From Hydrogenimonas cancrithermarum (GTDB taxonomy: Bacteria > Campylobacterota > Campylobacteria > Campylobacterales > Hydrogenimonadaceae): DNA of 64,000 nt. The position numbers were made by a program, and so were the translations under genes. Positions 11,567-17,231 of this stretch are shown here, in pieces. Position 1 is the first letter of the stretch; each line of letters starts with the position of its first letter. The DNA lies in NCBI RefSeq assembly GCF_030296055.1, contig NZ_AP027370.1, positions 2,175,001 through 2,239,000 on the forward strand. Direction: 5' to 3'. The notes under the pieces are model-generated. The model was not told the origin of the DNA. It made no database searches and saw only the letters and a program-made list of their open reading frames with translations.

Positions 11567-12916
11567 ATGAAAAAAACGCTGCTGGCAATGGTTCTCACTT
11601 TGCCTCTTTTCGCCGTCCAGGAGCATCTGACACTCGATCGGGCATTGATGCTGGTCAAGCAGAACAACCTGGAAATCAAGGTGGCACAGGATGAGATCCG
11701 TATGAAAGAGCTCGACGTCGATGTTGCCAAAGGATACAACTATGGTAGCGTTGATCTAATCATGAATGCTTTGCGTTCTAACGATGCATTAAATGTTTTC
11801 GGTTTTAAATTGACAAGCCGAGAAGCAACATTCGGAGCCTTTGGTGCAGGTGAATTCAATCCTGCCGATCCGAATGTATTGAATATTGCTCCTAAAGACT
11901 TGAACTATCCAGGTTCGAGAAACCATTTTCAGGAAAAGATCCAATACCAGGTTCCTCTCTATGTCGGAGGAAAACTCAACAAGTATGGACAGATTGCCCA
12001 GAAAATGGCCAACATGAGTCGGCTCGATAAGCAGAAAGTGGTTAACGAAAAGGTTTTTCAGACACGAAAGACCTTTTACGACATTGCGCTTGTCAACAGC
12101 TATATCAAGAATCTCAAAATCATTCTGAACAATGTCGAAGAACTTGAAGATACGGTATCGAACATGGTAAAAGAGGGCTATGCGCTGGATATCGACCTTC
12201 TCCAGGTACAGTCGAAAAAAGCGGATGTTCTGAGAATGCTCAATCAGGCGAAACTGAATCGGGATCTCGCCTATCAGTTTCTCTCTTTTCTCGTCGATGA
12301 TGAAGTGCGGTCCGTATCCGTTGTCGACAAAGATGTTCCTATGCCGAAAATGAGCAAAGAAGAGATGATCAACAGAAATATCGATATTCAGAAAGCGCAT
12401 ATGGGGCTGGAAGTGACCGATCTGGCGATCGGTGTCGAGAAAGCCAGTTATTATCCGCAGGTTGGAGCATTTGCCGAGTATGGAAGTGCAGACAACTCTT
12501 TTATGAACGACTTTACCGATAAGGATGCCTATACCGTAGGGGTTCAGCTGAAGTGGAACGTCTTCAATGGACTTATCGATAAATCGAAATATGAGAAAGC
12601 GCGTGTACAGAATCTCAAAGCACACCATCAGGTTGAGCTTGCAAAAAAAGGAATTGCCCTTCAGATCGATAAAATTATCACCGAGATCAAAAGCCGTGAA
12701 TACGATATCAAATCGTTGCAGGAGAAAGTCAAGTTTACACGTCGTGTCTATGAAAACTACTACAACCGCTATAAAGAGGGATTGATCTCCATCAACGACG
12801 TATTGATCAAGAACAGTGAAGAGATTCAGGCGGTTTTGAAACTGGCTGAAACCCGCAACAAAAGAAACAACAAAGTCTTCGAGCTTGAAAATATTATCAA
12901 CAAAGGAATGCTATGA
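11567..12916 (+). CDS. TolC-family outer-membrane efflux channel protein
   Basis: 449 residues, with a signal peptide (MKKTLLAMVLTLPLFA, cleavage near residue 17) followed by LTLDRALMLVKQNNLEIKVAQDEIR, the usual start of the first outer-membrane efflux repeat. Long amphipathic helices with regular Ala/Leu/Lys spacing at about 130-230 and 350-440 match the periplasmic tunnel. A second repeat carries YYPQVGAFAEYGSADNSF near residue 300. It is the outer-membrane part of a tripartite RND pump with the next three genes and overlaps the adaptor gene by ATGA. The substrate cannot be read from this protein. Confidence 0.9.
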   Translation: MKKTLLAMVLTLPLFAVQEHLTLDRALMLVKQNNLEIKVAQDEIRMKELDVDVAKGYNYGSVDLIMNALRSNDALNVFGFKLTSREATFGAFGAGEFNPADPNVLNIAPKDLNYPGSRNHFQEKIQYQVPLYVGGKLNKYGQIAQKMANMSRLDKQKVVNEKVFQTRKTFYDIALVNSYIKNLKIILNNVEELEDTVSNMVKEGYALDIDLLQVQSKKADVLRMLNQAKLNRDLAYQFLSFLVDDEVRSVSVVDKDVPMPKMSKEEMINRNIDIQKAHMGLEVTDLAIGVEKASYYPQVGAFAEYGSADNSFMNDFTDKDAYTVGVQLKWNVFNGLIDKSKYEKARVQNLKAHHQVELAKKGIALQIDKIITEIKSREYDIKSLQEKVKFTRRVYENYYNRYKEGLISINDVLIKNSEEIQAVLKLAETRNKRNNKVFELENIINKGML

Positions 12917-13704
12917 AAAAGATCGCTCTTTTAATTGCACTGTTTGCTGCGGCATTGAGTGGTGCCGAACTGACGTTGACCGGAAGTGTGGTTTCCGACA
13001 ATCAGAAGATGATGACAAGCCGCTATATGGGGTTTGTAAAAAAAGTTTACGTTGTCGAGGGGCAGCGTGTCAAAAAGGGACAGCTCCTCTATACGATCGA
13101 TTCCAAGGAGATCGACAGTGCGAAATCGCAGGTTGAACTCGCTATTTCGCAGGCGGAACTGGCCCTGCAGATGAACCGCAACCAGTACAACAACATTCTG
13201 ACCAACCTGGCACGACATGAACGCCTTTTCAAAAAGGGGATGGTTTCGAAATATGAGTTGGAAAATCTGCAGCTTGCCGCCGAAAATACGAAGGCGATGA
13301 TAGAAATTGCCGAAAAACAGGTTGAGCAGGCGAGAGCGAAGCTCAAAGAGGTTCTAAGCCAATATAAATATCTCGAAGTCCGAGCACCCAACAACGGCGT
13401 TGTCGTTGAAAAGAGAATCAATGCCGGAGAGATGGCGATGCCGGGAATGCCAGCCATTGTCCTGACCGATCTTAGCCGACTTAAAATCATGACGGAGATC
13501 TCCGAGAGCAACCTTAAAGACGTAAAAGTAGGAGAGAAAGTACTGGTGGAAATTCCCTCTATCGGATATGAAAAAGAGGGCAGAGTCTATGCGATCATTC
13601 CCAGCTCCAACCCGATGACACACCAGTTCAGAATGAAAGTATCGTTTGATTACAAAGGATATCAGGTCTATCCGGGGATGTATGCCCAGGTTACGGTCAA
13701 GTAA
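12913..13704 (+). CDS. RND efflux periplasmic adaptor subunit (membrane fusion protein)
   Basis: 263 residues, short for the family (usually 300-400). It begins with the signal peptide MKKIALLIALFAAALSGA and has no lipobox, so it is probably a free or peripherally held periplasmic protein. An N-terminal lipoyl-like half (GFVKKVYVVEGQRVKKGQLLYTID near residue 38) leads into a coiled-coil hairpin (about 68-145), then the second lipoyl half (VRAPNNGVVVEKRINAGEMAMPG near 157) and a beta-barrel. The membrane-proximal domain seems to be largely missing, which explains the short length. It links the channel to the split pump that follows. Confidence 0.9.
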   Translation: MKKIALLIALFAAALSGAELTLTGSVVSDNQKMMTSRYMGFVKKVYVVEGQRVKKGQLLYTIDSKEIDSAKSQVELAISQAELALQMNRNQYNNILTNLARHERLFKKGMVSKYELENLQLAAENTKAMIEIAEKQVEQARAKLKEVLSQYKYLEVRAPNNGVVVEKRINAGEMAMPGMPAIVLTDLSRLKIMTEISESNLKDVKVGEKVLVEIPSIGYEKEGRVYAIIPSSNPMTHQFRMKVSFDYKGYQVYPGMYAQVTVK

Positions 13705-13714
13705 AGGGTTGCAG

Positions 13715-15346
13715 ATGCAAGAGAGTAAAAGCTATCAGCCGCAGGATGTTGCAGGAAAGCTCGCACGCGGTTTTCTGCACAATCCGCTTACACCGATTCT
13801 CGGTATATTTTTGTTGTTGATCGGATATATTTCGCTCGAAATTATGCCACGGGAAGAGGATCCGCAAATCTCCGTTGCCGGCGGCACGATCATCGTTCCT
13901 ATGCCGGGCGCGACACCTCGGGAAATTGAAAATATTATCGTCAATCCGCTCGAAAGAAAGATTCGTGAGATCAAAGGGGTCGAACACATCTATGGAATTG
14001 CCATGGACAATGTTGGTGTCGTGAATGTTATGTACTACATCGGTGAAGATAGAGAGAAAGCGAATCTGAATCTCTACGATAAAGTGATGCAAAACATGAA
14101 TCTGCTTCCCAAAGGGGCAATGCAGCCACTTGTCAAGCCATTCGATGTCGATATCGATATTCCGATTATGGCGATCACCTTTTATAAAAAAGAGAATGCC
14201 CCCATCAGCGATACCGAACTCTTCAAGATCGTAAGAGAGATACAGCAGGATCTCAATCGAATCGACAGCGTCTCGAAGACAGAAATCAAGGGCGGATGCA
14301 AAGAGCAGTACAATATCGAAGTCGATCTTGGAAAACTTTCTGGATACCATCTCTCTTTGGGCCAGATCGTTCAGGCGATCAAAGCGTTGGCCGTGGACGT
14401 TCCCGATGTCAAAGGGCGCACGCAAGAGGGCAAACTTGTCATTTTCGGCATCAAAAATGCCATCGAGAGTGTACGTGATGTTGAAAATCTCATCGTAGCA
14501 CAATATATGGGTTCACCGATCTATCTGAAAAACGTCGCGAAAATCAGTGCAGGTAACGATATACAGAACTTTCAAAGTGTCGAGATTACAGAACGAAAGG
14601 GCAATGCTTTTACCCCTCTCAATCGTGCGGTCACATTGACACTCGGCAAGTTGGCCGGTGCCAATGCTGTCGTGATCGCTGATGAGGTAAAAGCGCGTAT
14701 GCAGGAGTACAAACCACGCCTTGAAAAGGAGGGTGTTGGTTTTACGATAACACGCGACTACGGAAAGCGCGCCAACGATGCGGTCAACGAACTGGTGGAC
14801 CACATTCTCATCACGATCGTCATTATCTCGGTCATGCTCGTCTTTTTCCTCGGATGGAAAGAGTCGCTCATCGTTACGTTCACCGTTCCGGCGATTCTCG
14901 CGATTACACTTTTTATTGCCTATCTGACGGGGCAGACGATCAACCGTATCACACTCTTTGCCTTTCTGCTCTCGCTGGGGCTTTTGGTTGATGCGGCGAT
15001 TATCGTGATCGAAAACATCCACCGTCATCTGCATTCCCATGACGCCGTTGACAAAGATATGGATGAGATCATGGTCGAGGCGACCGACGAGATCGGTGCG
15101 CCAACCAATATCGCGACACTCGCGATCATACTGACGATGGTTCCGATGGCGTTTGTCGGAGGGATGATGGGACAGTTTATGAAACCGATTCCCGCCAACG
15201 TTCCGGTTGCGTTGGTGGCTTCACTGATCGTCGCCTATATCTTTACACCGTATCTTGGGCGCAGGTTGCTCAAAAAACCGCATTTGCACCACCATCACCA
15301 CCATTGGCAAAAAGATGAAAAACGGGTAGAAGGAGGTGCCGAATGA
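13715..15346 (+). CDS. RND efflux permease, N-terminal half (split pump, His-rich tail)
   Basis: 543 residues covering the first half of an AcrB/CusA-type inner-membrane pump, which is normally one chain of about 1030-1050 residues. TM1 is at about 25-45 (NPLTPILGIFLLLIGYI), followed by the periplasmic porter region with IIVPMPGATPREIENIIVNPLE. TM2-TM6 lie between about 365 and 510. TM4 has LLVDAAIIVIENIHRH, the proton-relay region, in an Asp-Ala form nearer to heavy-metal pumps than to drug pumps. The chain ends in the cytoplasm with a run of six His in PHLHHHHHHW (about 523-532). ATG 13715 is chosen because the adaptor gene ends at 13704. The stop overlaps the next gene by ATGA, so the two halves are made together. 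Confidence 0.88.
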   Translation: MQESKSYQPQDVAGKLARGFLHNPLTPILGIFLLLIGYISLEIMPREEDPQISVAGGTIIVPMPGATPREIENIIVNPLERKIREIKGVEHIYGIAMDNVGVVNVMYYIGEDREKANLNLYDKVMQNMNLLPKGAMQPLVKPFDVDIDIPIMAITFYKKENAPISDTELFKIVREIQQDLNRIDSVSKTEIKGGCKEQYNIEVDLGKLSGYHLSLGQIVQAIKALAVDVPDVKGRTQEGKLVIFGIKNAIESVRDVENLIVAQYMGSPIYLKNVAKISAGNDIQNFQSVEITERKGNAFTPLNRAVTLTLGKLAGANAVVIADEVKARMQEYKPRLEKEGVGFTITRDYGKRANDAVNELVDHILITIVIISVMLVFFLGWKESLIVTFTVPAILAITLFIAYLTGQTINRITLFAFLLSLGLLVDAAIIVIENIHRHLHSHDAVDKDMDEIMVEATDEIGAPTNIATLAIILTMVPMAFVGGMMGQFMKPIPANVPVALVASLIVAYIFTPYLGRRLLKKPHLHHHHHHWQKDEKRVEGGAE

Positions 15347-17016
15347 AACGGTTCGAACAGTTCGTTTTTAATATTTTGGGATCGAAAAAGAAGCAGTGGA
15401 CCGTCATTCTTTTGACACTTGTCGCACTTGCCGGATCGATTATGATGCTGCCTACGAAAGTAGTGTTGGCCAAGATGCTGCCGGGCAAGAGTGCCAACAC
15501 ATTCTCTATCTATGTCAATGCTCCGACCGACAGTTCGATCGAGGAGACACGGAGAATCAGCGAGTGTGTGGTTTCGTTTTTGCAAAAAGAGAGTGAAGTG
15601 ACCGATACGGAGGTTTATCTTGGGCAGGGAGCCCCTCTCGACTATGCGGGCCTGGTAAAAGGCTCGGCATTCAAAAATAGCGAAAATGTCGCGGAAATTG
15701 TCGTGAATCTGACGGACAAACACGAACGGGAAGAGCCCTCATTTATGATGGTACACCGTTTGCGTCCCATCATCAAGAGCAATTGCGAAGCGATCAAAAA
15801 AGATACCGTCATCCAGATGATCGAACAACCGGCCGGACCGCCAACTCTGGCTGCCGTTGTTGCCGAAATCTACGGAAGGAACCATGAGAGTACCTATGCC
15901 TTGAGTAAAAAGATCGCAAAGATATTCAAATCGACGGATGGACTGGTGGATATCGATATCATGGCTGACGATCCTTACAAAAAGTTCGAACTGATTCCCA
16001 ATGCCGACAAGATCGCCCGATCCGGCCTGAGTGTCGAACAGGTCAACAAGATACTCTATCTCGCTTTCGAGGGGATGGTTATCGCACATAAAAACAGTCG
16101 CAACTATCCCGATCAGATTGGGCTTTTTGTACGCCTCAGCGACAAGACACGACGTCTTCGCGACCACAGCAAAGCGGCGCTTCAGAGCAAACTCGCATCA
16201 CTGAAACTTATGAATCAGAAAGGGTTGCTGGTTCCAATGAGCGAAGTCGTCACGATCAAGGAGGTGGACGCCTCTCCGACAATCATGCAGAAGAATCTGC
16301 GTCGTATGATCAATGTCACGGCGGAGACCGATCTTGTCTCACAGGTCTATCCACTGCTCGATGCACGAAGCAGGATCATGGAAGAGCTTTCAAGTCAGTA
16401 TGAGATCACGACGACCGATTACCTTTTCAATCTTCGTCTGAAGGACAAAAAAACAGGTGAGATCTTCGATCTGAAATGGGATGGCGAGATGAAAGTGACA
16501 CTCGATACATTCCGAGACCTTGGCGCGGCTTTCATCGCGGCGCTTATTCTGATCTTCCTGTTGCTTGTCGTTTATTACAAAAATTTCACCATCAGCGGTA
16601 TCGTGCTAGCAGGTAGCTTCCTCTCCATTATCGGGGTTATCATTGGTCACTGGGTTGCCGACCTCGTGACGGAACATACATTTTTCCTGACGGCCACATC
16701 GTTGATAGGCTTTATCGCCCTGATGGGTATCAGTTCGCGAAACTCCCTTCTGCTCATCGATTTCGCCAAGGCATTGATGGCTGAGAAGGGATTCGACAAG
16801 CAGCATGCCATTGCCGTTGCGAGTGCGACACGGGCCAAACCGATCATGTTGACCGCCATCGCGATTATTCTCGGTTCGGCACTGCTTGCGAGCGATCCAA
16901 TCTTCGGCGGCCTCGGTGTTGCACTCATTTCAGGTACCGTGGCCGCTGTCATTGTATCGCTGATCTTTATTCCTGTTCTTATGTACCGAGCCAAAGCGAT
17001 GGATTTTGACAAATAA
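15343..17016 (+). CDS. RND efflux permease, C-terminal half (split pump)
   Basis: 557 residues. It supplies the second half of the pump: TM7 at about 18-38 (WTVILLTLVALAGSIMML), the second periplasmic porter/docking region (about 40-380), and TM8-TM12 (about 390-550) with FIALMGISSRNSLLLIDFAKAL, the usual TM10 region, and AKPIMLTAIAIILGSALL. An AAGGAGGT ribosome site (about 15329) precedes the ATG. The cut falls in the cytoplasmic linker between TM6 and TM7, the one place where a break keeps both six-helix halves intact. This looks like a functional two-chain pump rather than a damaged gene. Confidence 0.88.
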   Translation: MKRFEQFVFNILGSKKKQWTVILLTLVALAGSIMMLPTKVVLAKMLPGKSANTFSIYVNAPTDSSIEETRRISECVVSFLQKESEVTDTEVYLGQGAPLDYAGLVKGSAFKNSENVAEIVVNLTDKHEREEPSFMMVHRLRPIIKSNCEAIKKDTVIQMIEQPAGPPTLAAVVAEIYGRNHESTYALSKKIAKIFKSTDGLVDIDIMADDPYKKFELIPNADKIARSGLSVEQVNKILYLAFEGMVIAHKNSRNYPDQIGLFVRLSDKTRRLRDHSKAALQSKLASLKLMNQKGLLVPMSEVVTIKEVDASPTIMQKNLRRMINVTAETDLVSQVYPLLDARSRIMEELSSQYEITTTDYLFNLRLKDKKTGEIFDLKWDGEMKVTLDTFRDLGAAFIAALILIFLLLVVYYKNFTISGIVLAGSFLSIIGVIIGHWVADLVTEHTFFLTATSLIGFIALMGISSRNSLLLIDFAKALMAEKGFDKQHAIAVASATRAKPIMLTAIAIILGSALLASDPIFGGLGVALISGTVAAVIVSLIFIPVLMYRAKAMDFDK

Positions 17017-17030
17017 AAAGAGGATCGCCT

Positions 17031-17231
17031 GTGCATGATGCAGGACGTTATATCATAGGATTGGGTATCGTCCTGATCCTTTTTGGACTTTTTGTCACAG
17101 TCGTCGGTAAGTTGCCCGGCGATATCGTGGTACGGAGAGAGAACTTCACGTTCTACTTTCCGATCACCACTTCCATTCTCTTCTCTATCCTTCTTTCCCT
17201 GATGTTTTACCTTTTCTCCAAGTTTTTTTAG
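17031..17231 (+). CDS. DUF2905-type small membrane protein
   Basis: 66 residues with two membrane segments (about 6-27 and 45-65) flanking KLPGDIVVRRENFTFYFPI, the signature of the DUF2905 family; the function is unknown. The only suitable start is GTG at 17031, supported by AAGAGGA at 17018-17024. It lies 14 bases after the efflux genes and is probably cotranscribed, though the family is widespread and not tied to efflux. Confidence 0.85.
   Translation: MHDAGRYIIGLGIVLILFGLFVTVVGKLPGDIVVRRENFTFYFPITTSILFSILLSLMFYLFSKFF

Follow-up and report, generated by a model that had tools for sequence, protein, structure and literature searches.

We report here that a 64,000 nucleotide stretch of the Hydrogenimonas cancrithermarum genome (NZ_AP027370.1, positions 2175001-2239000 of 2.38 Mb; hereafter the window) carries a four-gene cluster which probably encodes a proton-driven, AcrB-like tripartite efflux pump of the resistance-nodulation-division (RND) type, with a permease that comes in two separate halves following a single early break, and in which a histidine-rich tail on the first half is an accessory. 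The features of the cluster are listed below in window coordinates, with TM denoting transmembrane helices.

13715..15346, + strand: RND permease first half (P0001), TM1-TM6 and first periplasmic domain, 543 amino acids
15343..17016, + strand: RND permease second half (P0002), helix before TM7, TM7-TM12 and second periplasmic domain, 557 amino acids
15343..15346, + strand: ATGA stop-start overlap of the two permease halves, read from the sequence
15330..15337, + strand: predicted ribosome-binding site AAGGAGGT for the second half, inside the 3' end of the first-half gene, read from the sequence
15287..15304, + strand: HHHHHH codons (family motif HHHxHH), cytoplasmic by topology
15020..15040, + strand: His436, His438, His440 and His442 (IHRHLHSHD), where TM4 reaches the cytoplasm and within the TM4-TM5 loop
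14990..14995, + strand: TM4 Asp426-Ala427, at the places of AcrB Asp407-Asp408 by alignment with AcrB and CusA
12913..13704, + strand: periplasmic adaptor (membrane fusion protein), 263 amino acids (TIGR01730 RND_mfp, 120.1 bits, cut-off 94.9)
11567..12916, + strand: TolC-family outer-membrane channel gene, first of the four genes (Pfam OEP, 1.5e-32)

The two permease proteins divide the 1021 positions of the Pfam ACR_tran profile between them, P0001 matching positions 12-504 (1.1e-80, 272 bits) and P0002 positions 525-1017 (2.9e-47, 161.5 bits; cut-off 28 in both cases), and the genes therefore correspond to the two ancestral repeats of one RND permease; the profile is covered by both repeats together, in two genes instead of a single chain of about 1000 residues. 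The cut falls just after TM6, ahead of the helix preceding TM7. AlphaFold2 models show six long helices (TM1-TM6) in P0001, with a predicted local distance difference test score (pLDDT) of 75.5, and the helix before TM7 plus six more (TM7-TM12) in P0002 (pLDDT 73.5), and Foldseek matched the first half to AcrD, AdeJ and OqxB and the second to AcrB, AcrD and CmeB. An earlier note on this DNA had described one RND pump cut in the TM6-TM7 linker, each half with its full transmembrane set and the two joined by ATGA; the profile ranges and the models bear this out, and the overlap is exact at 15343-15346, coupling in translation itself being probable. The spacing from AAGGAGGT to the second start is 5 bases, and GGAGG-type sites occur at the equivalent place in many relatives; it is because the last codons of the first gene encode AAGGAGGT that EGG recurs near the end of the first protein. 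Genes for an adaptor and a TolC channel, which share 4 bases, stand alongside as expected of a tripartite RND system. No added metal-binding domain was found in the 263-residue adaptor.

Across relatives the split permease locus appears to be old and mostly vertically inherited, though extra copies exist. A family-level genome search, which covered one genus, matched 16 of 18 genomes, and in all 16 genus loci read both the split and HHHxHH were present. The earlier note had held that full-length single-gene homologues in all close relatives, or absence of the tail from them, would speak against its reading; neither was encountered. Both halves were found in 80/80 loci of a named-record scan, and searches of the class matched 97 of 298 genomes at 1e-90 and 162 of 397 at 1e-120, these two draws of genomes overlapping. 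The full set of 219 distinct sequences comprises 207 split and 12 single-chain permeases (the former include L145, L266, L271, L272 and L273, which are absent from the 202 parsed split rows referred to below), and the split is kept across many families, in a large group of bacteria that live on sulphur and hydrogen. It has a single origin: the split or single state changes once on a 159-row tree (rows more than 92% identical dropped), and N-half and C-half trees, built separately, each contain one split clade with a support of 100. The junction between the halves is a four-base overlap in 69 of 140 split rows, a one-base overlap in 45, and ranges from -38 to +12 in the other 26 (L199, the E. 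coli mdtBC, was left out of this count). The surrounding order is also well kept, with the adaptor gene within 150 nt upstream of the first half in 76/77 loci and the TolC gene adjoining the adaptor gene in 61/62 named-record loci with enough flank.

Single-chain open frames were found in seven genomes of one Campylobacterota family (f5; L132-L138), in G223:C8 and, as plasmid relatives from other phyla, in Polaromonas, Roseibium, Pseudanabaena and Paracoccus. In the f5 permeases TM1 is preceded by a long, charged cytoplasmic segment that resembles a coiled coil; the segment is shorter in L139 and is lacking in the split pumps. Second, diverged split copies occur in some genomes and on a Sulfuricurvum kujiense plasmid (L156, L158-L162, L187); several of the diverged extra copies lie apart from the tolC-adaptor pair or have the pair on the opposite strand.

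The class of the pump was addressed with trees and with alignments to AcrB and CusA. The genome (G000) has six further RND permeases (L001-L006), including a CusA-like pump (L003) and a CzcA-like pump (L002), and the split family falls apart from both of these. It forms a clade separate from AcrB and MdtBC (100/99, with few reference sequences in the tree) and lies outside the heavy-metal efflux (HME) clade in the N-half and the C-half trees. Alignment with CusA showed that Met573, Met623, Met672 and Glu939 are absent from the split pump; L003 keeps the three methionines. Membership of the HME class, that of CusA and CzcA, was ruled out by the trees together with the absence of these CusA metal residues, and the comparison with CusA/CzcA and HAE-type pumps which the earlier note had called for counts against a metal pump. 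The same note had read the Asp-Ala of TM4 (LLVDAAIIVIEN in the window) as nearer to metal pumps. The Asp is kept in 202/202 split rows, and the residue after it is Ala in 177 and Asp in 25; in the 12 single-chain rows it is Ser in seven, Asp in three, and Gly and Ala in one each. Since the second residue varies in this way within the family, Asp-Ala is not a metal mark and was dropped as a sign of metal transport. Among the places of the AcrB proton relay, Asp407, Arg971 and Thr978 are kept, Lys940 is replaced by Arg, and the Asp408 place has Ala or Asp; Arg466, Arg497 and Thr504 of the second half occupy the places of AcrB Lys940, Arg971 and Thr978. Of the marks of the hydrophobe/amphiphile efflux class HAE-1, neither grouping with AcrB and MdtBC nor TM4 Asp-Asp combined with a TM10 Lys was found.

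We propose that the permease was at first a single chain, that this chain was broken on one occasion early in the history of Campylobacterales, where its two ancestral RND repeats meet, and that the two genes would since have stayed adjacent and translationally coupled, by way of the overlap and of the ribosome site of the second gene inside the first. Such coupling would yield similar amounts of both halves, which would pair into one AcrB-like protomer; three protomers, with the adjacent adaptor and TolC, would make up the pump, and protons would drive export through Asp426 of the first half acting with Arg466, Arg497 and Thr504 of the second. Several points weigh against this proposal. In AcrB both Asp408 and Lys940 are essential, and it is these two places that are changed in the split pump, which may therefore use another path for protons. 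Because the split rows are related to one another, the counts of conservation are not independent. The confidence of the models is moderate, with predicted template-modelling scores (pTM) of 0.57-0.59 for halves that were each modelled singly.

The tail of the first half was located in the cytoplasm by the earlier note, in agreement with the topology, and was said to end in six histidines. A run of six is indeed present in the Hydrogenimonas protein, but the chain extends past ...HHHHHHWQKDEK by RVEGGAE, and the constrained motif across relatives is HHHxHH. Everything from residue 525 on has a pLDDT <50 in the AlphaFold2 model and is predicted to be disordered. When tails were aligned by the KKP and F/W-Q on either side, with His not required, 52 were obtained; all but at most one of these have His at each of positions 1-3, 5 and 6 (51-52 tails), and position 4 is H in 28, K in 10, Q in five, E in five, R in three and A in one. 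Both His codons (CAT and CAC) occur at each kept position of the motif, i.e., there are synonymous changes. This combination of five fixed histidines, a free fourth position and synonymous codons points to selection on the protein, which would target five particular histidines and not a histidine run as such. The HHHxHH run exceeds chance expectation: a scan of all 2.38 Mb for the codon pattern CAYCAYCAYNNNCAYCAY gave a single hit (one forward, none reverse; the backwards control also gave one), and the pattern appeared in 0/100 shuffles of the window.

The motif does not follow the split throughout the family. Among the 202 parsed split tails, 61 have HHHxHH, 59 have at least three His without the motif, 58 contain just one or two His, and 24 are free of His. 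On an 84-row tree (rows more than 86% identical dropped, L199 left out) HHHxHH requires eight changes, and the motif has therefore been gained or lost several times. In the genomes of group f7 the split is found together with His-free tails, so tolerance of the split does not depend on the tail. HHHxHH is not required for a split pump, and the tail looks like a constrained cytoplasmic accessory in some lineages; on the cytoplasmic side it may bind protons or a metal ion, or it may hold the free chain end in place.

A second group of histidines lies in the TM4-TM5 loop, which faces the cytoplasm as the tail does, and there His442 is present in 61/61 motif rows, 46/59 of the other His-rich rows, 16/58 rows with one or two His, 8/24 rows without His and 0/12 single-chain rows. 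The association of His442 with His-rich tails is the top of 915 column tests (1.8e-16, 147 split rows), and an earlier tail-loop test on 69 split rows was likewise the strongest of 626. It should be noted that three further columns without an evident tie to the tail reach 4e-16 to 1e-14 in the same kind of test, and that phylogeny-aware independent pairs of tail and His442 gave 3.5 to 0 (p 0.25). The link between tail and loop is thus a hint which cannot yet be told from shared descent.

These observations bear on the idea of a metal-gated or metal-exporting pump, in which the HHHxHH tail and the loop histidines would bind Zn, Ni, Co or Cu on the cytoplasmic side and gate the TM4 relay. The nearly invariant five positions of the motif and the distribution of His442, complete in motif rows, missing from all 12 single-chain loops and first of the column tests, speak for such a pump. 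Descent can explain the association, as the scores of the other columns and the independent pairs indicate, and the pump lies outside the HME clade without the CusA methionines and Glu939, the methionines being retained in L003; we consider metal gating unlikely. We give a similarly low probability to a scenario in which the freed end of TM6 let the HHHxHH tail evolve, so that with the histidines of IHRHLHxHD it would form a metal or proton site near the TM4 Asp which switches the pump from the cytoplasm. To our knowledge, no RND pump is gated from a cytoplasmic His tail and a TM4-TM5 loop. The case of Nitratiruptor SB155-2, whose split pump has an HHHHHH tail, may also count against metal gating as far as Cd is concerned. 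According to the published account (PMC10092412), the czc and cad candidates of this strain, among them the CzcB candidate NIS_RS03660, were not induced by Cd. By gene order genome G053 is probably SB155-2, with the published cluster NIS_RS04910-04945 mapping to 913-921 kb; groEL (NIS_RS02805) is at 498 kb, NIS_RS03660 falls near 667 kb by interpolation. Between 105 and 910 kb there is just one adaptor match, that of the split pump, at 672 kb. On this interpolated position and sole match, NIS_RS03660 is probably the adaptor of the SB155-2 split pump. The 27-gene Cd-and-Cu table of PMC10092412 has no gene tag between 02815 and 04830. The site of the Cd/Cu-induced cluster corresponds to L281 (G053 900000-919900), where genes named by eye from protein starts are an SO_0444-type transporter, a cytochrome c, an ArsR-type regulator, TolC, an adaptor and a CzcA-like pump; gene order gave no support for identifying the induced NIS_RS04925 with the CusA-like pump L193. 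The substrate is more probably a housekeeping or organic one than a metal.

A different role for the tail histidines, as a pH sensor or as a surface anchor to lipid head groups or to an acidic patch on the second half, by which the chain end left free by the split would be stabilised, would suit a basic-rich tail with a kept aromatic residue (F/W) after the motif, placed directly after TM6 and otherwise disordered; against it, His-free tails of 7-12 residues are common among split pumps, and we hold this role to be possible but doubtful. That the tail acts as DNA, with the His codons slowing ribosomes on their way to the second start and so controlling attenuation or coupling, is suggested by the run lying 39-56 bases ahead of that start; position 4 varies to non-His and the five His are kept with synonymous changes, which fits constraint on the protein better and makes this reading very improbable. 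Finally, the split might be a recent mutation, an assembly error or a programmed frameshift hiding one long protein. The two halves do share a reading frame, interrupted by a TAG, in at least three loci (L075, L140, L141), and occasional readthrough of the TAG there could yield a fused permease. Yet the split is kept in 207/219 distinct rows from many families, the frame between the halves is not kept (about 120, 11 and 9 of 140 rows per phase, by hand count), and a ribosome-site-like sequence and a start codon precede the second half. A hidden long protein is accordingly extremely improbable; recent mutation, sequencing error and hidden frameshift were rejected on the conservation of the split and its unfixed frame.

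With regard to the wider neighbourhood of the split pump, serA lies upstream of tolC in 54/59 loci with enough flank and efp downstream in 38/55. In the window the interval from the second half to efp contains a small GTG-start open reading frame (17031-17231) for a short hydrophobic protein, presumably DUF2905-like. The single-chain relative on a Paracoccus pantotrophus plasmid (L191) is found beside genes for an ArsR/SmtB regulator, a cytochrome c, an MBL-fold hydrolase, a sulphur transferase and an FAD/NAD(P) oxidoreductase, a cluster that resembles sulphide or persulphide handling. These sulphide-type genes and an oxidoreductase next to L142 are too few for a functional argument.

No account of a split tripartite RND permease or of a His-rich RND tail was found in the open-licence literature, as judged from titles and the starts of abstracts. 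If the split permease works as proposed, its stability across the order would mean that nature can do without a covalent TM6-TM7 link. Such a permease offers a ready system in which each repeat can be labelled, swapped or titrated separately, and HHHxHH allows the control of an RND pump from the cytoplasm to be put to the test. For annotation, the warning is that half-length RND genes occurring in pairs should not be taken for pseudogenes.

Compared with known systems, the split pump resembles the AcrB/AdeJ/AcrD type (HAE-1) in the fold of each half, in the adaptor and TolC alongside and in the kept Asp407, Arg971 and Thr978 places, and the best PDB sequence matches of the first half are 7m4p (AdeJ) and 6ows (presumably AdeB); it differs in being encoded by two genes, in having Ala or Asp for Asp408 and Arg for Lys940, and in forming a separate clade. 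The second half has its best PDB matches in TriC/MexK of Pseudomonas aeruginosa (6vej, which we take to be TriC, 3e-22; MexK 3e-18), and 6vej shares the Arg at the Lys940 place and the GPP motif; unlike the split pump, TriC and MexK are single chains, and 6vej has Asp-Asp in TM4. CusA of the HME class has the same Asp-Ala in TM4, whereas the split pump lies outside that clade and is without Met573/623/672 and Glu939. SecD-SecF, a protein translocase, also has the RND fold naturally divided between two genes, each with one repeat; P0001 reaches only 23.8-25.9 bits against the SecDF models, whose cut-offs are 500-723. The single-chain relatives (L132-L138, L139 and the plasmid pumps) form one clade with the split pumps as sister lineages and are 35-52% identical to the split pump in the first half; they differ in having one gene of about 1060-1180 codons with few His in the linker.

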